Source of the DNA: Hydrogenophaga intermedia
Lineage (GTDB): Bacteria; Pseudomonadota; Gammaproteobacteria; Burkholderiales; Burkholderiaceae_C
NCBI GenBank assembly: GCA_945890705.1
Contig: CAMDCY010000013.1
Span: 1 to 35,525, forward strand
Length of the DNA: 35,525 nt
Direction: 5' to 3'
The translations under genes were made by a program, and so were the position numbers. Below the pieces are notes generated by a model. That model saw only the letters and a program-made list of their open reading frames with translations. It searched no databases and was not told the origin of the DNA. Positions 1,772 through 33,815 of the stretch are shown piece after piece. Every line of letters starts with the position of its first letter. The stretch's first letter is position 1.

Positions 1772-1787
1772 TGCAATAGTCGTGCCA
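1772..1787 (-). promoter_or_regulatory. Sigma-54 (RpoN) promoter of flgBCDE
   Basis: Read on the minus strand the sequence is TGGCACGACTATTGCA, matching the RpoN consensus TGGCACG-N4-TTGCW at every defined position, with GG and GC spaced by 10. It lies in the 110-bp gap between the transglycosylase-like gene and flgB and points at flgB. The expected start of transcription is near 1760, leaving a leader of about 80 nt. Start site not measured. Confidence 0.9.
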
Positions 1788-8185: not shown

Positions 8186-9418
8186 TCAGGGCTTCTCGTT
8201 AAGGCTGGATTGTAGTGAGACCACGCCGCGCGACCAGTGGTTTTTCGGCACACCGGAGGACTGGGCGAAGGCGTTGGCCCTCTCCAAACTGGTAAACGGA
8301 CCGGAAACCAAAACCCAATAGGTTTGCCCGTTGGGCCGCAACAAGGGTACCGCTTGGGCCTTCTCCAACGCCGGGTGTTGAGACTGCCAAGCTTGCAACT
8401 CTGGCAAAGCGTCGAGTGCCACGTGTTGGACCACCCAGCCGCCCTTGTTAAGCTGGCGCGCCCACGCAAGACCGGGCACAACGGCGGCAACCGTGACGGG
8501 CGATGAGTCCGCAACCGGAGGAACCGCGGGGGCAGTCACCGGTTCGCTGACCACTGGGCTCTCGGTAACCACTGCAGGAACGGACACCACATTGGAATCT
8601 GTCACCGTGGAGGCTGGCTCGGCCTTGGGCAGGTTGTCGGGACTTTGGGTCGAGCCGCTACTGACGGCTTCGACCGCTGGCGCATCCGGCGCTGAACGGT
8701 TCTGCCACTGGTGCAGTCCCAAGACGATCACGCTGACCAGCACAAAAATGCCCAACAGGAGTTGAACCACCCAACGCTGGCTCTTGGCGAATCGAGGCGT
8801 CGGAGCGCTTTGCGCGGAAAAAGCAAAATCCACAACAGGTCCCGCCGCCGCATCGTCCATCCAGTGGGGTGCCGCCGTGGCCGCAGCCGCCAAGGGTTTG
8901 GACGCCGAAGGGGTTGCGGGTGCAACGGCTTTGCGCATCACAGGGGCGTGCCAAACCAAGAGTTTTTTGGCTTGACCGTGGTGAATCAGGTCGTCGGCGC
9001 ACAGGTTGTTGGCCATCAACAAAAGCTTCACGCCGGCGGCCGGGAAATCGTTGCTCAACCGAATCAACAATTTGGCCTGATCCAACTCCTGGCTGTTGTG
9101 GATGTGTTGAAGCCAGACCTGCTGGGTGGGAGGGGCACCGTGCGATTGAAGGGCTTGATCCACCGACAGGTTTTCGATCAGGCGGTTGAAGCGTTGGAGC
9201 AAAACCTCGCGGTCCATGTCAAACATGGCGGAGACTTCCACGCCGGGGTTTTGGCGCAATTTGCGAACCACGCTCTGGCCACAGGCGTCCAGCAAAGCGT
9301 CGTCGTCAGAAACCATGAGCACCGAACGCCCCTCGTGCGCGAGCGCATGAAACAAGCCCTCCAAGGGAGGCAGTTTGCCTGTCTCAGCGCTCATGGGGTT
9401 GCTCCAGTCGGTTTCCAT
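8186..9418 (-). CDS. Single-pass membrane protein with degenerate AAA-like N-domain and C-terminal SPOR domain
   Basis: 410 residues from the ATG at 9418, with AGGAAA 7-8 bases upstream. Residues 10-150 look like the AAA domain of ExeA/DamX-type proteins, but the Walker A site is gone: the segment reads VLMVSDDDALLDACG instead of a GKT/S loop. A Pro/Ala linker is followed by one membrane helix (VVQLLLGIFVLVSVIVLGL, about residues 217-235), then a Val/Pro/Ser-rich periplasmic linker. The end is a SPOR domain (GGWVVQHVAL and QTYWVLVSGPFTSLERANAFAQ). SPOR domains bind denuded septal peptidoglycan, so a division-site or pole role is plausible. It is divergent from the sigma-54 activator. A DamX-like function is inferred. 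Confidence 0.7.
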   Translation of the reverse strand: METDWSNPMSAETGKLPPLEGLFHALAHEGRSVLMVSDDDALLDACGQSVVRKLRQNPGVEVSAMFDMDREVLLQRFNRLIENLSVDQALQSHGAPPTQQVWLQHIHNSQELDQAKLLIRLSNDFPAAGVKLLLMANNLCADDLIHHGQAKKLLVWHAPVMRKAVAPATPSASKPLAAAATAAPHWMDDAAAGPVVDFAFSAQSAPTPRFAKSQRWVVQLLLGIFVLVSVIVLGLHQWQNRSAPDAPAVEAVSSGSTQSPDNLPKAEPASTVTDSNVVSVPAVVTESPVVSEPVTAPAVPPVADSSPVTVAAVVPGLAWARQLNKGGWVVQHVALDALPELQAWQSQHPALEKAQAVPLLRPNGQTYWVLVSGPFTSLERANAFAQSSGVPKNHWSRGVVSLQSSLNEKP

Positions 9419-9482
9419 CAATTCATTTCCTGTGTCAATCGGTCGTCAATGGCAAAAATCAAGCAAAATGTGGACCATTGAG

Positions 9483-9608: not shown

Positions 9609-10820
9609 ATGACACTCACGCCGCACCCTTTGATCGGTCAAAGCGAAGCCATGCGCAGCACACGTGCGCTCATTCAAACATTGGCCCCGTCATTGTCCAG
9701 TGTCTTGATACACGGTGAGAGCGGTACTGGCAAAGAATTGATCGCACAAGCCTTGCACGCACAAGGCCCCCGCCGATCGGGGCCTTTTGTGCCCATCAAC
9801 TGCGGTGCCATTCCTCGTGAGCTGCTCGAAAGTGAGCTGTTTGGCCACCGCAAAGGCGCCTTCACCGGTGCGGTGGGTGAACGCATGGGCCGCTTTGAAA
9901 TGGCCCATGGGGGCACGATTTTTTTGGATGAAATTGGCGACCTCCCCTTGGACATGCAAGTCAAACTCTTGCGTGTGCTCCAAGAGCGCCAGATTGAACC
10001 CTTGGGCTCCAACAAGTCGGTGCCCATCGACGTGCGGGTCATTGCCGCCACGCACAAAGACCTCGAAAAAGACATCACCGAACACAAGTTTCGCGAAGAC
10101 TTGTACTACCGGCTCAACGTCTTGCCCGTGCGCACCTCGCCTTTGCGCGAACGCCCTGAGGATATTCCAGAGTTGATGGCCTTTTTCTTAGCCAAATTCA
10201 CGCCACCGGGCATGAAGCCCTTGGTCTGTGACGGTAACCTCATGCAAGCGTTGCAACGCTACCCATGGCCGGGCAACATCCGCGAGCTCTCGAATATCGC
10301 CGACCGGTTTTCGGCGTTGTATGCCGGACAAAACTTGGATTTGTTTGCCATACCCGATTGGTTATTGCCAAAAGGCTTGGCGGCCATCCGGTCTGAGATG
10401 CCTGCACCTCCACGGCCCATTGACCTACCCCAAAAGAGCCAAGCTGCGGCTTTTTCGGGCGATGACGCTATGCAGGCCTTGCTCGACCCGCCCGAGGCCG
10501 TGACCCTAAGACCCGTGCCAGCACCCATGGTGCACATGGCGGCCAACGATGCTTTGGACCCCGCCTTGGCCATTTTGTCCGCCACCGACATCGATGAAGG
10601 CAACCCCGTCGAAGATGTGATCCGTTTGGCCATGGGCATGGACCCGCTGTTGCCCGATGGCATCTCGCTGCGCGACAAGCTCATCGACATCGAACGCAGC
10701 TACATCGAACAGGCGCTGCAGCGCACCGATTGGAACGTGTCGCAAACCGCTAGGATCTTGAGCTTGCAGCGCACCACGCTGATCGAAAAGATCAACAAAT
10801 ACGGCTTCAAACGCGCTTGA
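9609..10820 (+). CDS. Sigma-54-dependent transcriptional activator, FleQ/FlrA-like but without N-terminal receiver domain
   Basis: 403 residues from MTLTPHPLIGQSEAM at 9609. The frame is open further upstream, but that stretch lies over the divergent control region. The AAA+ domain starts almost at residue 1: Walker A GESGTGKE (about 36-43), the sigma-54 contact loop GAFTGA (83-88), Walker B GTIFLDEIGD (about 100-109) and sensor region VRVIAATHKDLE. A linker of about 90 residues (Pro/Ala-rich) precedes a Fis-type helix-turn-helix (IEQALQRTDWNVSQTARILS, then RTTLIEKINKYGF). The C-terminal NKYGFKR resembles FleQ/FlrA/FlbD. No N-terminal regulatory domain is present, so activity may be set by expression level, by FlhG contact or by partner proteins. 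It is the obvious candidate activator for the sigma-54 promoters before flgA, flgB, motA and flhA. Confidence 0.88.
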   Translation: MTLTPHPLIGQSEAMRSTRALIQTLAPSLSSVLIHGESGTGKELIAQALHAQGPRRSGPFVPINCGAIPRELLESELFGHRKGAFTGAVGERMGRFEMAHGGTIFLDEIGDLPLDMQVKLLRVLQERQIEPLGSNKSVPIDVRVIAATHKDLEKDITEHKFREDLYYRLNVLPVRTSPLRERPEDIPELMAFFLAKFTPPGMKPLVCDGNLMQALQRYPWPGNIRELSNIADRFSALYAGQNLDLFAIPDWLLPKGLAAIRSEMPAPPRPIDLPQKSQAAAFSGDDAMQALLDPPEAVTLRPVPAPMVHMAANDALDPALAILSATDIDEGNPVEDVIRLAMGMDPLLPDGISLRDKLIDIERSYIEQALQRTDWNVSQTARILSLQRTTLIEKINKYGFKRA

Positions 10821-10852
10821 TGCGCCCTTGCCAAGTGCTCGCGATCACCGCC

Positions 10853-11386
10853 TCACTTGTCCAGCACCAACCAAAACGGCCTTTGGTTGAGCACCGACTC
10901 TCTGCAGTAACTGTTTCCGCTGTAGCTGTAGTAGGCACAAGCCAGTTGCGTACCATGCCGACTCAAATCGGAGGCCCAATACTGTTCAACTTTGGCGCTG
11001 GGAAACACCTGTGTGTTGACAGCCGGGTTGGTACAGGCGGTTTCTTTCAGGGTGGCCATTTCTTTGAGCGTCGGCAAGCGCCATGCTTTGCCCGAGGACT
11101 CCGCAAAATCCGCCACATACGCCAAAGCATCGGTTTTGCTCATGAGGTGTGCGTCGCCCAAGCATTGCCCTTCTTGGAAGCGCTCACCTGCGTTGCAGCG
11201 AAACCAACGCAAACCGGTCTTGGGGTCGGCAGCCATACCCTGGCTGTCGACTTGCCAACTCCCCAAATCACCAGCGACAAAATGATCGCCACATCGCACC
11301 TGTTCGGCGTAACGGTCGCACGCACTCAGCCAAAAGACACTGCTCATGACAAACAAGGTGGCCAAGCATCGTTTCAAAATATTCAC
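10853..11386 (-). CDS. Putative lipoprotein with DUF1566 (Lcl C-terminal-like) domain
   Basis: 177 residues from a GTG at 11386, preceded by GGAG at a spacing of 8. The N-terminus is a lipoprotein signal ending in SVFWLSAC (lipobox LSAC). The rest fits DUF1566: GLRWFRCNAGERFQEGQCLG, then AWRLPTLKEMATLK, then VEQYWASDLSRHGTQLACAYYSYSG and a final WLVL strand. The domain is related to the fibrobacter/Lcl C-type-lectin-like fold and has several Cys residues that could pair. Its function is unknown. It is convergent with the sigma-54 activator and divergent from motA, so it may be flagellar only by position. Confidence 0.75.
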   Translation of the reverse strand: MNILKRCLATLFVMSSVFWLSACDRYAEQVRCGDHFVAGDLGSWQVDSQGMAADPKTGLRWFRCNAGERFQEGQCLGDAHLMSKTDALAYVADFAESSGKAWRLPTLKEMATLKETACTNPAVNTQVFPSAKVEQYWASDLSRHGTQLACAYYSYSGNSYCRESVLNQRPFWLVLDK

Positions 11387-11412
11387 GCGGACATCTCCAT
11401 GGGGTGTTCTAC

Positions 11413-11437
11413 AGAATCGGTGCAGGGTGTCGATTCT
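11413..11437. repeat. Inverted repeat AGAATCG / CGATTCT next to the motA sigma-54 promoter
   Basis: Perfect 7-bp arms at 11413-11419 and 11431-11437 with an 11-nt spacer. The repeat ends three bases before the -24 element of the motA promoter. Close dyads at sigma-54 promoters can be activator or repressor sites; no binding is shown. Confidence 0.45.
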
Positions 11438-11439
11438 CA

Positions 11440-11455
11440 AGGCACGGATATTGCT
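11440..11455 (+). promoter_or_regulatory. Sigma-54 (RpoN) promoter of motAB
   Basis: AGGCACGGATATTGCT differs from the RpoN consensus TGGCACG-N4-TTGCW only at the first base. GG and GC are 10 apart. It lies 98 bp before the motA start on the plus strand. Confidence 0.85.
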
Positions 11456-11552
11456 TTTATGACACAAATGGCAACAATTGGCCGATCGGTCGGTATTTCT
11501 GCTGAAATTTCAGGCATTGTAGAGTTTCAACCCCTTCTTCAGGATATTTGAC

Positions 11553-12311
11553 ATGGATATCGCAACCATCATTGGCTTTGCCGCGACCTTCGGCCTGATC
11601 ATCATGGCCATGGGCGACCCTGCCCCCTTCATCGACATGCCCTCGGTGTACATCGTGGTCTTGGGTACATTGACCGCCGTGTTGGCCCGAAGCACCATCC
11701 CCGAATTTGTGGGGGCCATTGGTGTGGCGCTCAAGACCGTGAAGTTCAAACTTGACAAGCCCGAGGACCTGATCGAGCAGTTGGTCAACTTGGGCACGAT
11801 TGCTCGCAAGGACGGCATGATCGCCTTGGAGGGCCAAGACATCCCCAACGCGTTTTTGGCCAAAGGCATCCGCATGCTGGTCGACGGCACCGAAGGCAGC
11901 ATGGTCAAGGCGACCATGGAGCGCGAAATGGGCATGATCAAAAACCGCAACGCCGAGGGCATGGGCTTCATCGCCTCAGCCCAAGAAATTGCCCCCGCCA
12001 TGGGCATGATCGGGACGCTGGTGGGCTTGGTGATCATGTTGGGCAACATGAGCGACCCCAAGTCGATCGGTCCTGCGATGGCGGTGGCGCTGCTGACCAC
12101 CATGTACGGCGCCATCATTGCGAACGTGATTTGTATTCCTTTGAACCAAAAACTCGCCAAACTCGATCAAGCAGAAGCCTTGAACCACGAATTGATCATC
12201 GAAGGCGTGATGTTCATTCAAAGCGGCGGCAACCCCCGCATGCTCACCGATATGTTGCTGCCTTTCGTGAGTCCCAAGGCACGCGCCAAGCTTGAAGCCG
12301 CCGCCGGTTGA
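11553..12311 (+). CDS. motA: Flagellar motor stator subunit A, PomA/MotC-like
   Basis: 252 residues, with four hydrophobic segments: near 3-22, near 30-50, and the pair around IAPAMGMIGTLVGLVIML and AMAVALLTTMYGAIIANVI. The cytoplasmic loop carries the charged torque-generating helix that contacts FliG. The length and the short N-terminal part match the PomA/MotC group rather than the 295-residue enteric MotA. The stator converts ion flow to rotation. AGGA lies 8 bases before the ATG. It pairs with the long MotB downstream (21 bp gap) under a sigma-54 promoter. Confidence 0.94.
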   Translation: MDIATIIGFAATFGLIIMAMGDPAPFIDMPSVYIVVLGTLTAVLARSTIPEFVGAIGVALKTVKFKLDKPEDLIEQLVNLGTIARKDGMIALEGQDIPNAFLAKGIRMLVDGTEGSMVKATMEREMGMIKNRNAEGMGFIASAQEIAPAMGMIGTLVGLVIMLGNMSDPKSIGPAMAVALLTTMYGAIIANVICIPLNQKLAKLDQAEALNHELIIEGVMFIQSGGNPRMLTDMLLPFVSPKARAKLEAAAG

Positions 12312-12332
12312 TCATCAAAAGAATGAATCACC

Positions 12333-13694
12333 ATGGCTGAAGAAACCCAAAAACCCGAAGACGCAACCGCAGCGCCTGCTGAGGCAGAAGCCAAGCCTGC
12401 GGCACCTGCGCCAGAAGACGCCGAGCCCGTCGCAGCGGCTGCAGCCGAACACGAATGTCCGAAGTGCGAGGAATGCCCGCCGTGCGTCAAAGGTGCGCCG
12501 GCTTGGATGGCTACCTTTGCTGACATGGCGACCCTGCTGATGGCCTTCTTTGTGTTGCTGCTGTCCTTTGCGGAAATGAACGTGCCCAAGTTCAAGCAGA
12601 TCAACGGCTCGCTCAAAAACTCCTTCGGTGTGCAGCGACTCATCCCTGTGGTGGAGTCGCCCAAAGCCACCAGCTTGATCGCCAAACATTTTTCGCCGGC
12701 CATGGCCGAGCCCACACCCGTCAATACCATTCGACAGCAAACCACCGACGACCGCAAAGAAAACGTCGAGCTCAAAATCGATGTATCCCCCGCGGCCGCT
12801 GAGGCGCTTGAAAAAGCCAAACAGCAATTGGCCCAAGAGATCAACCGCGGTGAGGTTCAGGTCAAAGTCGAAAACGACAAGGTCGTGGTCGAGATGGTGG
12901 CCCCCCTCACCGGTGGCGCCTCGGGTCCTGATGGCCAGCAAAAAGGCGGCAACAGCAGCAGCGGTAACCAACAAGGTGGAGCTGGTGCCAGCGGTAGCCA
13001 ACAAGCCGGCTCGGCCAACGCAGGCTCTGCACAAGCAGGCGCCAGCAAAGACGGCAGCGCTGCCGGTGCGGCCGCCAGCAGCGGGGCCAAGCAGGCCGGC
13101 ACGGTGGCGCAAGGTGAGATTGAGTTCTTTGCCAAGGTCGCCGATCTGCAGGCCTCCTCCCAAGCGCCGGTGGAAGTGCGCGACAACCGCACTGGCGGTG
13201 CCAGCGGTCAAGGCAACACGGGGAATGCGGGTGGCCCAGCCAACGCGGAAGCTGAGCTGCAGCGCATCCGTGAGGCCTTGGCCAAAGAGATACAAGCGGG
13301 CAAAGCCGAGGTGGAACGCGACGGTGCACGGGTGATCATCCGCCTGGCCGAACAAGGCTCGTTCCGCTCGGGTAGCGCCGACTTGCAGCCCGCCTTCACC
13401 CAGTTGCTGGACCAAGTGGGCAAAACCATTGCCCAAAGCAACGGCCGCATCTACATCGAGGGTCACACCGACAACGTGCCGGTGGTGTTCAACGAGCGCT
13501 TCAAATCCAACTGGGATTTGTCGGGCGCACGCGCCGGTGCGGTGGCCGACCGCATCTCGGGCGTCTCGGGCATTGCGCCAGGCCGCATGAGCGTCTCGGG
13601 CTATGCCGACACCCGTCCGCTGGAGAACAACAACACGGCCCCAGGGCGCAGCCGCAACCGCCGCATCGAAATCATCGTGGACGGCGCAACCTAA
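12333..13694 (+). CDS. motB: Flagellar motor stator subunit B, PomB-like, with long low-complexity linker
   Basis: 453 residues, well above the usual 260-330. The N-terminal 40 residues are Ala/Pro/Glu-rich, followed by four cysteines spaced CxxCxxCxxC (42, 45, 48, 51). The single membrane helix holds the ion-binding Asp64 in TFADMATLLMAFFVLLLSF, and the segment after it (FAEMNVPKFKQINGS) is PomB-like. Two related segments stand before the OmpA domain: ALEKAKQQLAQEINRG at about 156-188 and ELQRIREALAKEIQAG at about 304-343, each followed by a beta-strand pair. About 115 residues rich in Gly, Ser, Ala and Gln lie between them. The C-terminus is the OmpA-like peptidoglycan-binding domain (IYIEGHTDNVPV, NWDLSGARAGAVAD). 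The ion used (Na+ or H+) cannot be read from sequence alone. Confidence 0.93.
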   Translation: MAEETQKPEDATAAPAEAEAKPAAPAPEDAEPVAAAAAEHECPKCEECPPCVKGAPAWMATFADMATLLMAFFVLLLSFAEMNVPKFKQINGSLKNSFGVQRLIPVVESPKATSLIAKHFSPAMAEPTPVNTIRQQTTDDRKENVELKIDVSPAAAEALEKAKQQLAQEINRGEVQVKVENDKVVVEMVAPLTGGASGPDGQQKGGNSSSGNQQGGAGASGSQQAGSANAGSAQAGASKDGSAAGAAASSGAKQAGTVAQGEIEFFAKVADLQASSQAPVEVRDNRTGGASGQGNTGNAGGPANAEAELQRIREALAKEIQAGKAEVERDGARVIIRLAEQGSFRSGSADLQPAFTQLLDQVGKTIAQSNGRIYIEGHTDNVPVVFNERFKSNWDLSGARAGAVADRISGVSGIAPGRMSVSGYADTRPLENNNTAPGRSRNRRIEIIVDGAT

Positions 13695-13710
13695 ACACCT
13701 ATTGGGTCAC

Positions 13711-13750
13711 AAAAAACCGCCAGGCACTTCCATGTGGCTGGGGGTTTTTC
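13711..13750. terminator. Rho-independent terminator after motB, probably bidirectional
   Basis: A 12-bp stem with two mismatches (13716-13727 paired with 13734-13745) encloses the loop TTCCAT. A T-run follows on the plus strand and an A-run precedes it, so it can also stop the minus-strand operon that ends at 13783. Confidence 0.85.
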
Positions 13751-13782
13751 TTGGTCAGAGCTGAAGAAGATCGACCGGGTCG

Positions 13783-14778
13783 TTATTGGGCTTGAACGTT
13801 GGCCCCTGGCGCGGCGGTGGGCGATGTGGGAGGTGCGGGCCGGGGAAATTGAACCGGTGGGGGCCGACGGGCTTCAGCGGCTGCAGCCGCTTGCTTTTGC
13901 AATTGCTCCAAATAACGTTCACGCTGCAGGGTCACCAAGGCTTGTACGTCGCGTTTGAGCACATTGACATCGCCCACGGTCGACTGGAGGGCTTTGACAT
14001 CTTTGGACAAGGCCTGCACCGCATTCGCTTGGGTTTTGAGCTGCGAGCCCAAACCTTCAACTTGCTTGGTCACACCGCTGGTGGAGGCCGCCATTTGTTT
14101 GGCCAAGGCCTCAGGGACTTTTTGAACGGACTCAGTAGATGAGGCCAAGGTCGCTGCGATGCGCTGCTCGAGTTCCGCTTGTGATTTGGCCAACTGCTCT
14201 TGCTGAACCGTCAGCTCACTGATTTTTTCGCCCATCAAGCCCAAGCTTTCCAAGCTCGTGTTGAGCTCGACGGCGCGCTTGCCCACGGTCATGACGGTGG
14301 TATCCAATTGGTTGACCTTGCTGATCAAACGTACGCCCATGGCGGCAAAAAAACCGATCGAGAGCACCATCAGCACGGCGGTGGAGGCCAAGACGATGGT
14401 CGAGGTTTTGCCCATGCCTTGCGAGAGCTTGGTCAAGCGGACAGTCGAGTGGTTGAACTTTTGCCCCGCTTCATTGGCCGCCTTGGCGGCCTGACTGGCC
14501 ACATCGGCAGCATCCAGAACAGACGATGACAAGGTGACGAACTGCTGACTCAACAAGGCCTTGGTGGCCTCGTCCACCTCGACCGTGATCGGCTGAGGCG
14601 CAGGGGCTGCGAACGGTGGGGGGGCAACTTCGGGCGCCGACGTTGGCATGACCAAATCGCTGGGGGCAAATGCCGGTGCTTCGCTGGACCCATCGGTGGG
14701 CGAGGCATCCTGCGCCTGCACGTTGGTGCCGTCGGGCGTTGCGGGTGTGGCGTCGGCGTTTGGGGCTGAGTCGGTCAT
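13783..14778 (-). CDS. Membrane-anchored coiled-coil protein of unknown function
   Basis: 331 residues. The N-terminal 85 residues are Ala/Pro/Asp-rich and probably disordered. One clear membrane helix is near residues 128-150 (TIVLASTAVLMVLSIGFFAAMGV). It is followed by about 150 residues of heptad-like sequence (ELTVQQEQLAKSQAELEQRI, then VEGLGSQLKTQANAVQALSKDVKALQS), a long coiled coil. The C-terminal tail is Pro/Ala-rich and ends NVQAQ, a string that also occurs near the N-terminus. I do not recognise the family. It is the last gene of a four-gene operon, with its ATG overlapping the previous stop by 4 bp. Coiled coil plus single membrane helix suggests a structural or scaffolding role; a partner for the channel in the same operon is speculation. 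Confidence 0.8.
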   Translation of the reverse strand: MTDSAPNADATPATPDGTNVQAQDASPTDGSSEAPAFAPSDLVMPTSAPEVAPPPFAAPAPQPITVEVDEATKALLSQQFVTLSSSVLDAADVASQAAKAANEAGQKFNHSTVRLTKLSQGMGKTSTIVLASTAVLMVLSIGFFAAMGVRLISKVNQLDTTVMTVGKRAVELNTSLESLGLMGEKISELTVQQEQLAKSQAELEQRIAATLASSTESVQKVPEALAKQMAASTSGVTKQVEGLGSQLKTQANAVQALSKDVKALQSTVGDVNVLKRDVQALVTLQRERYLEQLQKQAAAAAEARRPPPVQFPRPAPPTSPTAAPGANVQAQ

Positions 14779-15152
14779 TTCAAGGTTCCTGTGGTGCGGC
14801 GCAAGGCGTCCGTGTCGCGACGCACTGTCGCGGACGTGGCGCGCAACTGAGCCATGCGCTCTTCCAAACCACGGTCGAGTGGCGTGTTGTGCGACACGGG
14901 TGATGCTTTAGGAATCGGCACCGCTTCGACATTCTTGAGTGCCGGGTTAGGCGTTATCTTGGGCATCAGAGGCATCTTGAGGGTGGTGCCCACTGGGTCT
15001 GACAGGTTCAAGCTGGGCAAATCCACACTTGCCCAAACTTTGGGCTCGATCGCGGACACCTGGAACCGGGGCTCAGTGTCGGTCGGCTCGGCGGTGGGGG
15101 CCAAGGTGTTGTGTTTGTGCAGTTGATCGGTGACCAAAGGGGACGTGCTCAT
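14775..15152 (-). CDS. Small hypothetical protein in the K+ channel operon
   Basis: 125 residues, polar, Pro- and Thr-rich in the first 80 residues, with no membrane helix or signal peptide. The C-terminal 40 residues (DRGLEERMAQLRATSATVRRDTDALRRTTGTL) are amphipathic and helical and could form a short coiled coil. I do not recognise it. It overlaps both neighbours (TGATG with the channel stop, ATGA with the coiled-coil gene), so the three are surely translated from one message. The helix may bind the long coiled coil of the next protein; this is inference. Confidence 0.72.
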   Translation of the reverse strand: MSTSPLVTDQLHKHNTLAPTAEPTDTEPRFQVSAIEPKVWASVDLPSLNLSDPVGTTLKMPLMPKITPNPALKNVEAVPIPKASPVSHNTPLDRGLEERMAQLRATSATVRRDTDALRRTTGTLK

Positions 15153-15958
15153 CAGTGATGCTCCTCATGGACGTGTTCGTGACGGTGACGTTGCAAGGTG
15201 TCGCTGAAAGCGGAGGCCAAGATCCCGGTGGGCATCGCAATGACACCAATGCCCGCCACCGCGGTCATGCCCGCACAGATACGACCGATGACGGTGATCG
15301 GATAAGCGTCACCATAGCCCACGGTGGTCAAGGTCACGATGGCCCACCACATGGTGCGCGGGATGCTGCCAAAGGCCTCTGGTTGGGTGCCGCCCTCGAC
15401 CACGTACAACACGGTGGACGACACCAAGAGCAAAAAACCGGTGAGCATCACGCTCATGCCCAACTCGTAGCGCCTTGAACTGACCGCTTCGGTGAGCAAC
15501 TGCAGCGAGCTGGAAAATCGCCCCAAACGCGCCAAACGCAAAATGCGCAACATCCGAAACAAACGGAAGATGTAGGCCTCGTTGCCAATGAAGGTCAGCA
15601 GCATGGGGGACAACGCCAAGAGATCGATGAGGGCCGTGGGACTGCGCAAATAGCGCAAACGCCCTCGCCAGCCGTCTTGGTAGGCATGAGACTCCACACA
15701 AACCCAAGCGCGAACGAGGTACTCAACGATGAACACCACACCCAAGAACTTTTCCACCACAGCCATCCCGACACCCCAGCGTTGGTTGATGAGGGGCTCG
15801 CTGTCCAAAATGGCGATGACCACCGAAAACACGATGGCGGTGGTCAAAAAACGGTTGATCGGCGAGAGTCCGCCCAAGCTCCATGCCGATGGGTCCAAGT
15901 GCACAAAGCAGCGGTGTCGCCATTTTTTCATGGGCGATGGGGCATGGCTTGGGCTCAT
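15152..15958 (-). CDS. Voltage-gated-type potassium channel, six transmembrane segments
   Basis: 268 residues. The Kv layout is complete: S1 near 37-52, S2 near 66-88, S3 near 108-124, an S4 with regularly spaced Arg (FRLFRMLRILRLARLGRFSS, 131-150), S5 near 166-187, a pore helix, and the K+ selectivity filter TVGYGD at 212-217, then S6. The C-terminal tail is His-rich (QRHRHEHVHEEHH), which might bind a metal or sense pH. Family knowledge: bacterial Kv channels set membrane potential and can support electrical signalling. It is the second gene of the operon, overlapping the preceding gene by ATGA. Nothing in sequence links it to the flagellum except its place between motAB and flhB. Confidence 0.93.
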   Translation of the reverse strand: MSPSHAPSPMKKWRHRCFVHLDPSAWSLGGLSPINRFLTTAIVFSVVIAILDSEPLINQRWGVGMAVVEKFLGVVFIVEYLVRAWVCVESHAYQDGWRGRLRYLRSPTALIDLLALSPMLLTFIGNEAYIFRLFRMLRILRLARLGRFSSSLQLLTEAVSSRRYELGMSVMLTGFLLLVSSTVLYVVEGGTQPEAFGSIPRTMWWAIVTLTTVGYGDAYPITVIGRICAGMTAVAGIGVIAMPTGILASAFSDTLQRHRHEHVHEEHH

Positions 15959-16371
15959 TTATTGGTTTTGAATTGTTCGCGCATGGCGTCGATGGTGCGG
16001 TCGACGTTGCTGCACTGCGCCGTGAGGGTCATGTCTTCTTGAACCTTCACAGGGGGTGTTTCAAAACCAAAACCGGGGTATTTGGGGTTGCTTTTCAAAA
16101 ACACGCGTTCGTTGCTCATGGTTTTGAGCACCGCCACCCCTTTGGCAAATTCAACCTGCCGGCCGTCGGTCGAAGTGGCCAAGAAGGCATCGTCAATCAG
16201 TCCGCACTGGTTGTTCAAGCGGATGATGCTGGTGATGGGTTTGGGTGTGTTGTCGCTCCATTGCATGAAAGCGAACCCCATGGCCACCGCCAAAACAATG
16301 AAGCCCAACAAAGACACCAAAATCAGGTTCCAGTTGGTTTCATCTTCAATTTTGAATTTCTTTTTTAGCAT
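15955..16371 (-). CDS. Small membrane-anchored protein of unknown function
   Basis: 138 residues from the ATG at 16371, chosen because GGGAG lies 5 bases upstream; an upstream TTG in frame would overlap that site. It has a basic N-terminus (MLKKKFKI), one membrane helix (LILVSLLGFIVLAVAMGFAF, about 18-38) and a periplasmic domain of about 100 residues with two cysteines. The domain has alternating strands (VEFAKGVAVLKTM, ERVFLKSNPKYPGFGF). I do not recognise it. It is the first gene of the operon with the K+ channel. It starts 66 bp after the flhB stop on the same strand, so read-through from the fliK-flhB operon is possible. Confidence 0.75.
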   Translation of the reverse strand: MLKKKFKIEDETNWNLILVSLLGFIVLAVAMGFAFMQWSDNTPKPITSIIRLNNQCGLIDDAFLATSTDGRQVEFAKGVAVLKTMSNERVFLKSNPKYPGFGFETPPVKVQEDMTLTAQCSNVDRTIDAMREQFKTNK

Positions 16372-16436
16372 TTTTACTCCCAAACCTCAATAAAACATTA
16401 CTTTGTATTTTAGAGAGTTGCAGTCTCAGTTTGGTT

Positions 16437-17591
16437 TCATGCCGGATCGGTCTGAACACGACCATCCGCGTCGTAACGCATGTTCGCTGGGACCTTGGGT
16501 TGGGGTTTGACCAGGCCGCCCCGTCCCGGTTGTGCGGCTTCAAGGTTGTACACATAGGCAATGACCTGGGCCACAGCGTGGTAGAGCGCTTCGTTGATGG
16601 GGGCTTCAACATCGGTGGTGAAGTACAAAGCGCGTGCCAAGGGTGGCGCCGAGAAAATGTGCACGCCGTGCACACCGCCCTCCTCGCGGATACGCGCTGC
16701 CATCTCGTCCATGCCCTTGGCCACCACGATGGGGGGGCGGTCGGACGAGGGGTCGTACTCCAAAGCCACAGCAAAGTGCTCGGGGTTGGTGATGATGACA
16801 TCCGCGTCTTTGACGCGTTGCATCATGCGGCCATTGGCCATTTCTCGCTGTCGGCGTCGGATTTGAGCTTTGACTTCAGGACGACCTTCAATGTCCTTCA
16901 TCTCGTCCTTGACCTCTTGTTGGGTCATGCGCATGCGCTTGGTGAACTGGCTCTTTTGAATGGGCACGTCAATGAACGCAATGACAGCCAGACTCAAGGC
17001 AATCCACAAAGCCGATTTGGCAATCAATTCGCCGCCCACGGCGAGCGCGGGCTCCAGACCCATGCGACCGAGCTGGAGCAAGGTGTCAAATTCGCTGGCA
17101 ATCGACAACCACAACACGCCCGACACCAAGGCGAACTTCAGCACCGCCTTGCCCAATTCGGTGGCGGCATGGGTACCGAACATGCGCTTGAAACCTTGAA
17201 TGAGGCTCAATTTGCTGCCCTTGGGCGCCACGGCCTTGAGGGAGAACAGATAACCGCCCGTCATGCCCGCGGCAATCACAGCCAGCACGGCCGTGAGCAA
17301 CAAAATGGGCGTGATCAGCAAAAAACCGTCCCACATCTGTGAGAAGAAAGTGCTGGGCAGCAACAGGGGTTGATCCAAGGTCTTGCGATCAAACACAAAA
17401 CCTTTGGCAAAGTTTTCGGCAATCTCGGTGACCAACCAGCCGCCCGTGGCCAAAATCATCAAAAAAGCACCGATCACAATGGCCGCCGCAGGCAGCTCTA
17501 TGGACCGGGCAACTTGACCATCCTCTCGGGCCTTGCTGAGCTTCCTGGCGGTCGGCTCTTCCGTTTTTTCTTGTGCGCTGTCTTCGGCCAT
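16437..17591 (-). CDS. flhB: Flagellar export switch protein FlhB (NPEH variant)
   Basis: 384 residues, matching the family. FlhB sits in the export gate and switches substrate class from rod/hook to filament after self-cleavage. Start MAEDSAQEKTEEPTARKLSKAREDGQVARS is diagnostic for the family's N-terminus. Four hydrophobic segments lie within about 35-210. The cytoplasmic part has the cleavage site as NPEH, with Asn at residue 269, the same position as in the enteric protein, where the motif is NPTH. Asn and Pro, the residues between which cleavage occurs, are kept. It starts 2 bp after the fliR stop and is the last gene of the fliK-flhB run. Confidence 0.96.
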   Translation of the reverse strand: MAEDSAQEKTEEPTARKLSKAREDGQVARSIELPAAAIVIGAFLMILATGGWLVTEIAENFAKGFVFDRKTLDQPLLLPSTFFSQMWDGFLLITPILLLTAVLAVIAAGMTGGYLFSLKAVAPKGSKLSLIQGFKRMFGTHAATELGKAVLKFALVSGVLWLSIASEFDTLLQLGRMGLEPALAVGGELIAKSALWIALSLAVIAFIDVPIQKSQFTKRMRMTQQEVKDEMKDIEGRPEVKAQIRRRQREMANGRMMQRVKDADVIITNPEHFAVALEYDPSSDRPPIVVAKGMDEMAARIREEGGVHGVHIFSAPPLARALYFTTDVEAPINEALYHAVAQVIAYVYNLEAAQPGRGGLVKPQPKVPANMRYDADGRVQTDPA

Positions 17592-17592
17592 C

Positions 17593-18363
17593 TCAAGGCA
17601 CCTTCAACACGCTGCGCACGACATCGAAGCCTTGCAGCCACAACCACTCGATGCGGCCACCCACGCTGTCGAGCGAGAGCATGAAAATCAACAGGCCCAC
17701 GGCGATCATGGCGGGAAAGCCCACGGCAAAAATGTTCAAACTGGGCGCTGCGCGGGTGACGACGCCCAAGCCCACGTTGATGAACAGCAGGGTGATCATG
17801 ACCGGCAACGTCAACAACACTCCGCCCAAAAACATCATGGATCCCCATCGGATGACCTGTGCGTAGGTGTCTTGATTCAAGATGCTGGCGCCAACGGGCA
17901 GCGTGTAAAAGCTCTCCATGATCAAGCCGATCAACACAGCGTGCCCGCCAGTGCCCACGAAAATCAGGGTCGACATGATGACCACGAATTGCGACAGAAC
18001 AGGCGCGTTACCGATGTTGGGATCGACCAAGGTGGCCATGGACAAGCCCATGGCGGCCGACAAGGCCTGGCCCGCCAAGACCAACGCAGCGACCACGACC
18101 TGCATGATCAGGCCCATGCACACGCCAATGAAAATTTGATTGAGCAACTCCAACAAACCTTGAGCAGACGTGGGGTCGATGCGGGGCCAGTCGTGAAGCG
18201 GGTAGATCATCCAAGTCAGCACAATGGCCAACAAAATACGGATGCGCAGGTTCACTGAGGCGGTTGAAAACGGTGGTGTGGTCAAGAGCATGGCCGAGAT
18301 GCGTGTCATCGGCCACAAGAACAAGTAAAACCGTTCAATGATCTCAGCACCGAGCAAGTTCAT
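17593..18363 (-). CDS. fliR: Flagellar export gate protein FliR
   Basis: 256 residues from the ATG at 18363, the usual length. FliR forms the core of the export channel together with FliP and FliQ. Hydrophobic throughout, with RISAMLLTTPPFSTASVNLRIRILLAIVL near the N-terminus, the pattern found in FliR. The frame continues upstream, but overlaps fliQ. It is 20 bp from fliQ and followed by flhB. Confidence 0.95.
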   Translation of the reverse strand: MNLLGAEIIERFYLFLWPMTRISAMLLTTPPFSTASVNLRIRILLAIVLTWMIYPLHDWPRIDPTSAQGLLELLNQIFIGVCMGLIMQVVVAALVLAGQALSAAMGLSMATLVDPNIGNAPVLSQFVVIMSTLIFVGTGGHAVLIGLIMESFYTLPVGASILNQDTYAQVIRWGSMMFLGGVLLTLPVMITLLFINVGLGVVTRAAPSLNIFAVGFPAMIAVGLLIFMLSLDSVGGRIEWLWLQGFDVVRSVLKVP

Positions 18364-23144: not shown

Positions 23145-23160
23145 TGGCACGGGTATTGCA
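23145..23160 (+). promoter_or_regulatory. Sigma-54 (RpoN) promoter of flhA-flhF-flhG-fliA
   Basis: TGGCACGGGTATTGCA matches the RpoN consensus TGGCACG-N4-TTGCW at every defined position. Transcription should start near 23171, so the in-frame ATG at 23160, which ends inside the -12 element, cannot be the start of FlhA. The ATG at 23211 then has a leader of about 40 nt. Confidence 0.92.
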
Positions 23161-29942: not shown

Positions 29943-30293
29943 ATGACCACTGACCCGTTTCAATACCTCAACACCCAAAGAGCCGCTGAATTCATTGGCG
30001 ACAGCGCTGGCGTCAACCGCTTGCTAACAACGCTCAAAGCCACGCTCGACGCCGATCTTCCCACCCTGCGACAACGTTTGGCCGATGGCAACACCCAAGG
30101 CGTGCACGACCTTTTGCACCAATTCAAAGGCTTTGCGCCAGTGTTTTGTGTGGACAGTTTGGTTGAGCTGGTGATTCAAGTGGAGGCCATGAGCAAGCAA
30201 GCTTCTCCCAAAGCCCTCCAAAAAGCCATGGCTCCTTTGCTGGATCAACTCACGGTGTTACATGCCGAAGTTGAGCGTCAACTCGCGGCATGA
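29943..30293 (+). CDS. Histidine-containing phosphotransfer (Hpt) domain protein
   Basis: 116 residues, a single four-helix Hpt domain. The likely phospho-acceptor is His59 in LLHQFKGFAPVF, matching the HxLKGxAxxFG pattern. Hpt proteins pass phosphate from a hybrid kinase receiver to a response regulator. It is convergent with the hybrid kinase at 30278, their 3' ends overlapping by 16 bp. A TAAAAT near 29911 could be a -10 element, but the -35 is poor. Confidence 0.85.
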   Translation: MTTDPFQYLNTQRAAEFIGDSAGVNRLLTTLKATLDADLPTLRQRLADGNTQGVHDLLHQFKGFAPVFCVDSLVELVIQVEAMSKQASPKALQKAMAPLLDQLTVLHAEVERQLAA

Positions 30294-32032
30294 ACCTTCT
30301 GCGACAGCAGTTCCTCGACCTTTGCGCACAGCTGTGAGGGCTCAAACGGTTTGAGCATCACGCTGCTCAAGCCAGCCTCGACGAAACGGTCCAAATCTAC
30401 CGGGTTGACGTTGGCCGTCAAACCCAAAATCGGGGTTTGCGCGGCGGGGTTGGGTAATTCGCGCCGAATGAATTTGGACGTATCAATCCCGTCCATCACG
30501 GGCATGACCATGTCCATGAAGACCACGTCGTAGACGCCTGCTTGCAATTTCTCCAAGGCCATTTTTCCGTCATCGGCTTCATCAATGACGCTGCGCGGCC
30601 AGGCGTTCTGCAGCACCTGTTTGACCAACAAGCGGTTGATGGGGTGGTCGTCCACCACCAAAAAGCGCCACGAGGCTTGTGGCGTTTGCAAGGGCGAAGT
30701 CTCGGTCTGCACCATCAAGGGCGGCTCCATCGCGTGCAATGGCAGCTCAAACCAAAATCGGGAACCCTGACCCAACTGACTTTCAAAACCAATCGAGCCA
30801 CCCAGCAAATCGACCAAACGCTGGGTGATGGTCAGACCCAAGCCATTGCCACCGTATCGCTTTTGAATGTCGCTGTCGGCTTGGGTGAAGCGCTTGAACA
30901 CCTGCAAGTGGTGGTGCTGCGCAATACCAATCCCGGTATCCTCCACGCTGAACAAGACGCCCGTTGGGACACGTTGCACTTTCAACAACACATGCCCTTC
31001 GTGCGTGAACTTGATGGCATTTCCGATCAAATTGACCAGAATTTGCATCAGCCGGTGACGATCGGTGCTCACCCACTCGGGCACATCGTTTTGGATATCG
31101 GAGCGAAAAATAAGGTGGGTGCTCTTGATTCGGGGCAAGAAAAGATCGACCGCGTGTTGCACCGTTTGGCGCAAGGCAAAGGTCTCGGCCCTGGCCGTCA
31201 GACGCCCGGCGTCGAACTGGGAGTAGTCCAAAACATCGTTGATCACGGTCATCAAATGGTCGGCCGACTGACGCGTGTGTTCCAAAATTTGGCGCGCTCG
31301 CGGTTTGTCGCCCACTTGGTTGAGCAACAAGGTGTTAAAGCCCAAGATGGCGTTCATGGGCGTGCGCAACTCGTGGCTGACAGTGGAAATGAATTGCTCT
31401 CTGGCTTTGACCGTGTTGACCAATTCTTGACGTTTTTTCTCCAACTCCAATTGGCGATGCTCGACCTCTGCCAATGCCTTTCGGTGCTGGTGGTCATAAA
31501 TCAGGGGCACGATGATCAGCACGCAGGTCACCAAGGCGTAGGTCGTCAATGACGATGTCGCATGCACCAGACCCAAGTCGAAAGTCTTGAGCCAGTCACC
31601 CTGCCCCGTGAGCACGGTCACGGTCAACTGAATCAAGATCACCAAACCAAACCAAATGTACCCACTTCGCCTTCCAATGACAAAGAACGGTGTGATGGGC
31701 AAAATCAACAGCCAGGCCAAACGCGGGGAAAAAATACCACCCGACACCCAAGCCGCGAAAACGATCTGAACCGCTCCCAGTGCGGTGGCCAAGTGCACCG
31801 TCTTGGCCAAGGACATGCCCCGATACAAGAGAAAAATTTGCAGGGCCAAGGTGGCTGCAGAGACCAATGGGACCAGCGTGCCATAAGCGTAAGGGCTGAT
31901 CCAAGCAAAAACGAGCATGACGCCGATGATGAGCACCCCAAACAAAACGGCGTAAGGTGTCTTTCCGGCTTGAAACCGCTCGGGTAAGCGTGGGATGACG
32001 TGCTGAGAAAACCAGCGAGCGAGGTCGATCAT
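30278..32032 (-). CDS. Hybrid sensor histidine kinase with N-terminal multi-pass membrane sensor
   Basis: 584 residues from MIDLARWF at 32032, which overlaps the preceding stop as ATGA. Residues 25-185 hold about six membrane helices with short loops, so the sensor sees a membrane or membrane-borne cue. The kinase follows: phosphoacceptor His220 in STVSHELRTPMNAILG, N box VNLIGNAIKF, G1 DTGIGI and G2 YGGNGLGLTIT. The C-terminal receiver has Asp507 in FMDMVMPVMDG and the Lys of MLKPF. No DNA-binding output is present, so phosphate must leave via an Hpt such as the convergent one. It forms an operon with a very similar kinase upstream. Confidence 0.93.
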   Translation of the reverse strand: MIDLARWFSQHVIPRLPERFQAGKTPYAVLFGVLIIGVMLVFAWISPYAYGTLVPLVSAATLALQIFLLYRGMSLAKTVHLATALGAVQIVFAAWVSGGIFSPRLAWLLILPITPFFVIGRRSGYIWFGLVILIQLTVTVLTGQGDWLKTFDLGLVHATSSLTTYALVTCVLIIVPLIYDHQHRKALAEVEHRQLELEKKRQELVNTVKAREQFISTVSHELRTPMNAILGFNTLLLNQVGDKPRARQILEHTRQSADHLMTVINDVLDYSQFDAGRLTARAETFALRQTVQHAVDLFLPRIKSTHLIFRSDIQNDVPEWVSTDRHRLMQILVNLIGNAIKFTHEGHVLLKVQRVPTGVLFSVEDTGIGIAQHHHLQVFKRFTQADSDIQKRYGGNGLGLTITQRLVDLLGGSIGFESQLGQGSRFWFELPLHAMEPPLMVQTETSPLQTPQASWRFLVVDDHPINRLLVKQVLQNAWPRSVIDEADDGKMALEKLQAGVYDVVFMDMVMPVMDGIDTSKFIRRELPNPAAQTPILGLTANVNPVDLDRFVEAGLSSVMLKPFEPSQLCAKVEELLSQKVHAAS

Positions 32033-33756
32033 TTTTCGCCCCCCGTTGGCGCTTGGCTGAGCCATTGGGTGAGTGTCTTTTGCACCATGTGGCTATCCAT
32101 GGGTTTGTGCAGAACGCCGTTCATTCCCGACTCCAAACAGCGCTGGCGATCCATCGGGTTGGTGTTGGCGGTCAACGCCAAAATCGGCATCAGCGCATGC
32201 TCAGCAGAGGCTCGCAAGCGACGTGTCAACTCCATGCCGTTCATGTCGGGCATGACCATGTCGATGAGCGCGATATGAAAGGACTTGGTCCGCAGCGCTT
32301 CCAGCGCTGCTTGACCGCTTTCAACAGCGGTGATGCGTGCACCAGCGAAGTGTTTTTTGATCTGTAACTGGGCCACCATGAGGTTCACCACGTTGTCGTC
32401 CACCAGCAGCACATCAAACTCGGCAGGCATCCACCCTTGTCCAAAAGCACGCTGGGTCATCGCGCCAGTGTCTGCCACCTGGCATGGCAGCTCAAACCAA
32501 AAGCGAGAGCCCACACCCTCTTCAGAGCTCACGCCCAATCGACCCTGTTGCAACACCACCAAGCGCTCACATATCGCCAAACCCAAACCTGTCCCGCCGT
32601 AAGCGCGATTGGTCTGCTCATCGGCATGCTCAAAACGGTTGAAAATTTGCAATTGACGGGTCAGGGGTATGCCACTGCCCGTGTCTTGTACCTCGAACCA
32701 GAGCCGATCGCCCTGCACCAAACAAGTCACATCAATGCGACCAGTTGCTGTGAACTTGAGGGCGTTGTCCAACAATTGGTCGACAATTTGCGCCATTCGT
32801 CCAGCGTCAATCTCAACCCGCACATCAGGGACGTTCCACCCCAAACTCAATCCCTTGCCTTGCGCTCGCTGCACATAAGGCTCTGCAAAGCTGTTCATCC
32901 ACATCAGAAGATCGCAGGGTTCGGGGTGAAACACCACGCGCCCAGATTTGAGCTGCGAGAAATCCAAAATGTCGTTGATGAGGGACAGCAAACTCTCGGT
33001 CGAACCGCGGATCAAATCCACCGTTTCGATGGATTGGGGCTGATGTTTGAACTCATCTCGGAGCACCCCATTGAGACCCAGGATCGCATTCATCGGCGTG
33101 CGCAATTCGTGGCCGACGGAAGCCACGAACTCGTCTTTGTGGGCCTGCGCTTGCAGCAATTCAGCGTGGATATCGAGCAGCGCTTGATTGCGTCGCTCCA
33201 CCTCCAGCAAGCGACGGCGGTACAAGAAGTCAAACAACCACAAAGCCATCATCAAACAGGCCATGGCACCCAAGTGGTTGAAAAATGCCCATGGCAAGGT
33301 TTCATCGTCGTGGGTGATGGTGCTGACCAACCTGCCCTGCTGAGCGCCCACCCACAATAAGGCCTGAGCTCCTAAAGACACGCCCAACCACAGGCCGGTA
33401 CCTGCTGGGCCCAACAACAAGAGTGCGGCGATCGACAACACCACCAACCACACCAACACACTGGAGTTGATGCCGCCGGTTTGAAACGCGATGGTGGACA
33501 TGCCCAAGACGATGGCCGTCAAAAACACGTGGCATATCAGGTGGTACAGGCGGGCAAACACCGCCAAGGGCATGAGCAAAAAAAGAAAGGCGCTGAGCCA
33601 CATATTCACTCGGTGGTCATATGCGGTTTGCGGGACGAAATAAAACATCAGCGAGCTCAAGGCCGTGATGGTGATGCAAACCATCAGCAACTGGCGGCGA
33701 TTGAACAAACTGCCCGCCAGCAAGTCCCGCCATTCCACCCACCATCGCTGTGCCAT
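32029..33756 (-). CDS. Hybrid sensor histidine kinase, paralogue of the downstream kinase
   Basis: 575 residues from the ATG at 33756; an in-frame TTG two codons upstream is possible. Layout equals that of the next gene: about six membrane helices (residues 20-180), a short coiled linker, His216 in ASVGHELRTPMNAILG, a complete ATPase domain (LLDNALKF, DTGSGI, YGGTGLGLAIC) and a receiver with Asp499 in LIDMVMPDMNG. There is no output domain. The membrane sensor differs in sequence from that of the paralogue, so they probably read different cues and share one phosphorelay. Confidence 0.93.
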   Translation of the reverse strand: MAQRWWVEWRDLLAGSLFNRRQLLMVCITITALSSLMFYFVPQTAYDHRVNMWLSAFLFLLMPLAVFARLYHLICHVFLTAIVLGMSTIAFQTGGINSSVLVWLVVLSIAALLLLGPAGTGLWLGVSLGAQALLWVGAQQGRLVSTITHDDETLPWAFFNHLGAMACLMMALWLFDFLYRRRLLEVERRNQALLDIHAELLQAQAHKDEFVASVGHELRTPMNAILGLNGVLRDEFKHQPQSIETVDLIRGSTESLLSLINDILDFSQLKSGRVVFHPEPCDLLMWMNSFAEPYVQRAQGKGLSLGWNVPDVRVEIDAGRMAQIVDQLLDNALKFTATGRIDVTCLVQGDRLWFEVQDTGSGIPLTRQLQIFNRFEHADEQTNRAYGGTGLGLAICERLVVLQQGRLGVSSEEGVGSRFWFELPCQVADTGAMTQRAFGQGWMPAEFDVLLVDDNVVNLMVAQLQIKKHFAGARITAVESGQAALEALRTKSFHIALIDMVMPDMNGMELTRRLRASAEHALMPILALTANTNPMDRQRCLESGMNGVLHKPMDSHMVQKTLTQWLSQAPTGGEK

Positions 33757-33815
33757 ATGCAAGTCAACCCATTGAATCTGATGGTGAATTGTCTGGTGCG
33801 GTGGTCGTTGAATTC

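Follow-up and report, generated by a model that had tools for sequence, protein, structure and literature searches.

A run of four open reading frames, here termed P1, KV, P3 and CC, occupies positions 13783–16371 on the minus strand of the window, i.e., the whole stretch of 35,525 nucleotides analysed, which represents one entire contig of the draft genome G000 (82.67 % complete, 1.92 Mb in 128 contigs). The genes of the run, its neighbours and one further gene relevant to the analysis are the following:

8186–9421, minus strand: SPOR-like protein of 411 amino acids, here located between fleQ and flgP
11553–12311, plus strand: motA, convergent with CC
12333–13694, plus strand: motB, convergent with CC
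13783–14778, minus strand: CC, membrane protein of 331 amino acids with a proline/alanine-rich N terminus, one membrane helix and a long coiled coil
14775–15152, minus strand: P3, protein of 125 amino acids with a C-terminal helical stretch and no membrane helix seen; positional equivalent of the gene preceding CC in relatives
15152–15958, minus strand: KV, predicted six-helix voltage-gated K+ channel of 268 amino acids with a short histidine-rich tail
15955–16371, minus strand: P1, protein of 138 amino acids whose N terminus carries positive charge, followed by a single membrane helix and a domain of about 90 amino acids with two invariant cysteines
16437–17591, minus strand: flhB, upstream neighbour of P1 and probable head of the putative transcript

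As read from the sequence, the genes overlap by 4 bp (ATGA, P1/KV), 1 bp (TGATG, KV/P3) and 4 bp (ATGA, P3/CC), while 65 bp separate the stop of flhB from the start of P1. The original prediction of four genes overlapping by 1–4 bp at every junction, and situated between motAB and flhB on the strand of the latter, agrees with these coordinates, and the overlaps support its proposal that the genes are arranged for joint production. The same motA/motB arrangement was found in six relatives (L110, L111, L113, L116, L146 and L147). Proteins encoded around the block were identified via Pfam as FlgD, the flgA chaperone, a FliK-like protein, LPP20, a sigma-54 activator and FHIPEP (flhA), as well as SRP54 GTPase (flhF-like), ParA (flhG-like) and sigma-70 (fliA-like) proteins, so that the block is part of an extensive flagellar cluster; the labels flgP, flgT, fleQ and flhX were assigned by us from domains and known gene orders.

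GC content and codon usage of the block fall within the values seen in the flagellar genes nearby, the one exception being the GC content of P1, which is the lowest (0.496) among the 32 genes computed. P1 and CC are considered to be coding, since homologs with conserved residues exist, and P3 is regarded as a gene mainly from its position. No sigma-70-like promoter was detected in the region 13600–17700. A sigma-54-like site with one mismatch (16624–16639) was dismissed, as it is located within flhB and the number of such sites (33) compares with 34.5 expected by chance.

The channel KV and the three neighbouring proteins

KV matches the Pfam families Ion_trans (95.3 bits, cut-off 25; E 4.4e-27) and Ion_trans_2 (53.2 bits, cut-off 22.5) and stays below the cut-offs of the NCBIfam models PRK10537 (26.2 vs. 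425) and K_channel_Meth (28.1 vs. 300). Its S4 segment, RLFRMLRILRLARLGR (residues 132–147), harbours six arginines, one at every third position; the S2 segment contains FIVEYLVR (residues 76–83), resembling the charge-transfer motif of this helix; the K+ selectivity filter TVGYGD is found at residue 212, and the C terminus is formed by a histidine-rich tail of 12 residues. The best solved relatives by sequence (PDB) are KCNQ2 (6e-32), Kv2.1 and Kv1. An AlphaFold2 monomer model, obtained with eight relatives in the alignment (pLDDT 77, pTM 0.63), had its best Foldseek matches with Kv1.2 (E 7.4e-10, TM-score about 0.6), Kv1.3 and Kv4.2. The Ion_trans match, the filter and the tail bear out the six-helix K+ channel with TVGYGD and histidine-rich tail that had been predicted, and sequence and model alike point to a genuine Kv-type channel, for which we infer voltage dependence, K+ selectivity, gating sign and tetramer state.

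None of the other three proteins matched a Pfam or NCBIfam family above cut-off, in agreement with the initial reading, in which P1, P3 and CC were not assigned to any recognised family. For P3 and CC, the window proteins were compared with Pfam and NCBIfam, and one counterpart of each protein from a relative with Pfam; weak matches of CC, all below cut-off, were read as coiled-coil noise. The domain of P1 is probably periplasmic, and its cysteines C56 and C120 are conserved without change in all four sequences aligned. The AlphaFold2 model of P1, computed without alignment, is confident in the helix only.

Gene order in related flagellar loci

CC matches were found in 21 of 399 genomes of the family (own genome included, i.e., 20 of 398 others), three of them weak. 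With the CC profile, matches were obtained in 6 of 300 order-level genomes (among them G000 and G146) and in 2 of 67 genomes of the genus (G000 and G030), and the CC alignment (A2) contains invariant residues. The window proteins were mapped onto the fetched surroundings of the CC-bearing loci. Overall, 19 loci contained the entire flhB–CC interval (L107–L113, L115, L116, L118–L124 and L145–L147, the last three of which were judged by protein matches and spacing alone). The cut contigs L114 and L117 were excluded from these 19, and the genomes with weak CC matches (G068, G122 and G336) from the slot counts; no match was obtained upon mapping of L126 (G336).

Without exception, CC lies downstream of flhB in the 19 relative loci that cover both genes. 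A gene for a SPOR-like membrane protein lies between flhB and P3–CC in 17 of them (missing in L119 and L145), and an ORF of 120–309 amino acids precedes CC in the 16 loci read. The common order in relatives is, thus, flhB, SPOR-like gene, P3 and CC. A match to KV or P1 did not occur in any of the 19 intervals (E limits 1e-3 and 1e-5), and in G030, the sole other member of the genus with CC, the slot is kept by a SPOR-like gene (without SPOR domain). The arrangement with P1 and KV in this slot is found in one genome only among those examined.

These gene orders bear on the original view of P1, KV, P3 and CC as one module. A single complex or signalling module for electrical motor control would be in line with the tight overlaps and the location between motAB and flhB; however, relatives have CC and the P3 slot but no KV beside them, all 19 intervals lack KV and P1, and P1 is without an adjacent KV in the three neighbourhoods read, so that such a module appears quite improbable. 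Correspondingly, the four genes are not conserved together near motility loci, with P1 homologs being solitary where their neighbourhoods were read and KV relatives mostly unlinked (see below). Membership in the flagellar cluster, in turn, holds for CC, together with the P3 slot, from the constant succession of flhB and CC, and does not extend to a four-gene module.

The 4-bp overlap of P3 and CC recurs in 11 of 16 relatives, the other five junctions ranging from −29 to +28 bp (measured on longest ORFs). Comparison of P3 with the profile of the relatives' pre-CC genes by hhalign yielded an E-value of 0.0087, which was reached by 1 of 100 shuffles and was the best among the window proteins compared. 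Against homology speaks the result of hmmsearch, by which P3 (E 0.11) ranked behind flgM (E 0.033). The equivalence of P3 to the relatives' pre-CC gene is, therefore, a positional call, resting on position more than on sequence.

The identity of the window's flhB amounts to 50–68 % with flhB of loci that have an identically ordered set of accessory genes, vs. 34–39 % with 43 of the 44 further genomes of its own genus that gave a match. This divergence from most of the genus, together with the fragmented and incomplete state of the draft genome, could suggest an assembly or binning artefact in which the contig order is chimeric; the overlaps at the junctions, an ordinary codon usage and intact synteny on both sides contradict this to an extent that renders it hardly credible.

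The SPOR-like gene that is missing from its usual slot was identified elsewhere in the window (8186–9421). Its product is the only match to a relative's SPOR-like protein in the own genome (E 4.4e-21), aligns with the relatives' profile over 373 columns (hhalign, 100 %, 1.8e-40), matches by blastp at 4e-28 and reaches 21.2 bits for a C-terminal SPOR domain in Pfam (cut-off 21). The SPOR-like proteins of 15 relatives (A3) are mutually homologous by blastp, with the short proteins of L112 and L115 attaining best E-values of 2e-18 and 9e-18 outside their pair, and KV, P1 and CC of the window have no blastp match to any of the 15. The Pfam SPOR domain was seen in three of eight relatives' proteins scanned (one above cut-off), and 4 of the 15 (L112, L115, L118 and L124) end before the SPOR domain. 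No SPOR-like match was found beside flgP in ten relative loci holding flgP. Hence, P1–KV occupies the slot of the SPOR-like gene, which in the window sits at flgP. Either the SPOR-like gene moved and P1–KV filled the slot, or P1–KV entered and displaced the SPOR-like gene. An origin of P1 as remnant of a SPOR-like gene was rejected, since the SPOR-like gene is intact elsewhere in the window and P1 has relatives of its own and no match to SPOR-like proteins.

Taken together, CC is supported as a conserved flagellar accessory protein, and the most plausible view is that it forms a separate flagellar accessory set with P3 and the SPOR-like protein. SPOR domains bind denuded peptidoglycan at division sites; from the presence of this domain a scaffold role at the envelope or pole is suggested, and P3 and CC would probably contribute, with the SPOR-like protein, to an envelope scaffold of the flagellum. 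In the best reading of the data they are not channel subunits.

Distribution of P1 and of KV-type channels

Homologs of P1 were detected in 3 of 298 other genomes of the family, all belonging to one genus (g124), and in 8 of 10 genomes of this genus. In the three neighbourhoods read (L138–L140) they are solitary, being accompanied by other genes and no channel. Plasmids searched with P1 and with the CC of one relative yielded no match. P1 and KV could nevertheless represent an auxiliary subunit and its channel, with the flagellar site being irrelevant to the pairing, which would be compatible both with the reading favoured below and with hitch-hiking. The 4-bp overlap fits this notion, and each of the four P1-bearing g124 genomes searched for KV (G182, G273, G342 and G403) has a KV-type channel gene at another site. 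However, the two genes are not neighbours in g124, a single genus provides no independent evidence, and KV-type channels are present in 130 of 399 family genomes as compared to P1 in 4 of 299; a dedicated pair is, overall, rather unlikely.

KV-type channels (E 1e-20; own genome included in the above 130) share at most 41 % identity with KV in any other channel found in the family. At class level, matches (E 1e-40) were obtained in 27 of 284 genomes, own included, and the closest relatives belong to other families (54 % in G846, 47 % in G938). The higher identity to channels of other families than to those of its own fits lateral gain or differential loss; considering that GC content and codon usage of KV resemble those of the flagellar genes, a transfer, if any, would not be recent or would have proceeded from a similar genome. 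A tree computed without the closer class-level relatives, which placed KV as sister to a Sphingomonas channel (support 100/99), was given no weight, since the program warned of long branches.

A KV-type channel within 20 kb of FlhB was observed in 2 of 80 family genomes (G333, 0.4 kb, where FlhB may be of type III secretion rather than flagellar; G317, 5.3 kb), with roughly 0.64 expected by chance (P about 0.14). These 80, of which 72 have FlhB, are not a random sample but those ranking highest by E-value among the 130 genomes with a match; contigs were matched by hand and 13 distances computed, and misses are possible, as contigs are often short. Likewise, the flagellar probes gave no match in the 20 class-level loci (3.6–19.9 kb each) that surround the closest channels. 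KV as a generally motility-linked channel was rejected for the family on the former count. Five of 12 named loci, all from Halieaceae (L046 and L048–L051), show the channel adjoining two sigma-54 regulators, which in L048, the one Halieaceae locus scanned with Pfam, are followed by FliF, FliG, FliH and FliI. There is, consequently, no general link between channel and flagellum, although a comparable neighbourhood exists in one further lineage at least.

The strongest remaining rival to a motility-related role is hitch-hiking, i.e., a housekeeping K+ channel gene residing in a permissive slot of a flagellar operon, its co-expression being incidental and motility unaffected. This is a tangible possibility, favoured by the scattered distribution of the KV relatives, by their near-absence from the vicinity of flagellar genes in both samples and by the solitary occurrence of the P1 relatives in the three neighbourhoods read; on the other hand, the start/stop overlaps at either end of KV couple its translation with that of the flagellar genes, and Halieaceae, too, place a related channel beside flagellar genes.

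Proposed role of KV and relation to known systems

The explanation we favour, granting it an even chance of being correct, is that P1–KV was inserted, in this lineage specifically, into a conserved operon of flagellar accessory genes, with KV most likely acting as a voltage stabiliser. As regards expression, the KV start overlaps the P1 stop and the KV stop the P3 start, among flagellar genes of one strand, and co-expression with the export gate is presumed. As regards function, KV, which is too short for a cytoplasmic ligand-binding domain, would form a homotetramer opening upon depolarisation, and K+ efflux through it would repolarise the membrane. Given its presumed production alongside flagellar proteins, KV most likely stabilises the membrane voltage in cells building and running flagella, both of which consume proton motive force. 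As regards partners, P1 may face the periplasm as a partner of KV.

Restoration of voltage would matter, because the flagellar export gate of Salmonella needs membrane voltage (PMC8179193), and because alkaliphilic Bacillus altered its tumbling and swim speed when voltage-gated Na+ channels were blocked (PMC4225499). A motility role of this kind would not be a family trait, as most KV-type channels lie away from flagellar genes (2/80 and 0/20, see above). A still more specific version, in which KV, produced along with the export gate, is a dedicated flagellar part that senses the depolarisation arising as protons pass the export gate and the stators, and repolarises the membrane, such that export and rotation persist, with Halieaceae representing a second, independent recruitment, is in our view unlikely. 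The link between KV, membrane potential and motor, as put forward originally, is regarded as possible.

New are the swap, present in one genome, and the conserved accessory set, with P3 and CC unnamed in the libraries searched. Among the titles and abstract beginnings listed for literature on flagella, bacterial channels and SPOR/DamX, there was no description of the arrangement or of the accessory set, and no literature was found joining a SPOR domain with flhB, or a bacterial K+ channel with swimming and membrane potential. The conserved accessory genes P3 and CC, belonging to no library family, could point to an envelope component of these flagella that has not been described. To our knowledge, few voltage-gated channels of bacteria have been assigned a role, and a channel gene overlapping its neighbours within a flagellar operon provides a specific, testable case for such a role. 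In PMC8179193, the K+ channel of B. subtilis biofilm signalling is named as the only example of voltage-gated activation in bacterial function to date, to which flagellar export is added.

Among known systems, Escherichia coli DamX comes closest to the SPOR-like family of the window and its relatives, the profile of the relatives' proteins matching the DamX structure 2lfv (E 1.2e-5). DamX possesses an N-terminal AAA-type domain; no Pfam AAA family match was found in the SPOR-like protein of the window or in the eight relatives scanned. The SPOR-like family differs from DamX in being located in flagellar operons and in the four relatives ending before the SPOR domain.

The closest voltage-gated K+ channels of the Ion_trans family are Kv1, Kv2, Kv4 and KCNQ as well as KvAP. 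With Kv1, Kv2, Kv4 and KCNQ, KV shares the six-helix core, the six-arginine S4, TVGYGD and the predicted Kv fold, whereas its 268 amino acids leave no room for a T1, calmodulin-binding or nucleotide-binding domain, and it differs in the 12-residue histidine-rich tail and in the location of its gene within a flagellar operon. NaVBP/NsvBa of alkaliphilic Bacillus is voltage-gated, and its blockers alter motility (PMC4225499); it conducts Na+ or is non-selective, in contrast to the K+ selectivity presumed for KV. The Halieaceae channel is a related Kv-type channel beside flagellar genes (36–37 % identity to KV over the four aligned), but, unlike KV, it is encoded by a single gene divergent from its neighbours in another flagellar segment, has a longer C-terminal tail and belongs to another branch of the channel tree.

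Divergence of flhB within the genus

The flhB of the window (16437-17591) shares 50-68% identity with its counterparts in the loci of relatives carrying the flagellar accessory genes, including 66% with that of G030, a genome of the same genus. In the remaining 43 matching genomes of this genus, flhB is only 34-39% identical to it. A second flagellar type, transfer or a binning problem may account for this divergence.

Further features of the flagellar cluster

The following features were detected in the window, where looser sigma-54 sites occur in a number expected by chance:

1772-1787 (-), perfect sigma-54 consensus match upstream of flgB
10853-11467, gene with Lcl_C domain, flanked by fleQ and motA
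23145-23160 (+), perfect sigma-54 consensus match at the flhA start
30278-33762, two adjacent hybrid histidine kinases behind the flagellar cluster, one with a MASE6 match scoring below the cut-off

An Lcl_C-domain gene occupies the equivalent position in five loci of relatives (L110, L111, L113, L146 and L147). Two frames share the motB match in L110 (10663-11933), a split that may reflect a frameshift or a sequencing error.

Kv-type channel genes in other genomes

In Halieaceae, two sigma-54 regulators adjoin a Kv-type channel (at about 10000 in L046 and L048-L050, at about 4500 in L051), followed in L048 by FliF-FliG-FliH-FliI. In L148 of genome G333 (10341-12628), a Kv-type channel gene lies tail-to-tail with an FlhB/YscU family gene, which may be either flagellar or of type III secretion. 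Clustered Kv-type channels, four per run, were found in three small genomes of a single genus (2.5-2.6 Mb, completeness 100%).

Four-gene runs of Kv-type channels (family genome search)
G139:C1:583670-588838
G242:C1:456545-463810
G379:C19:97476-104811
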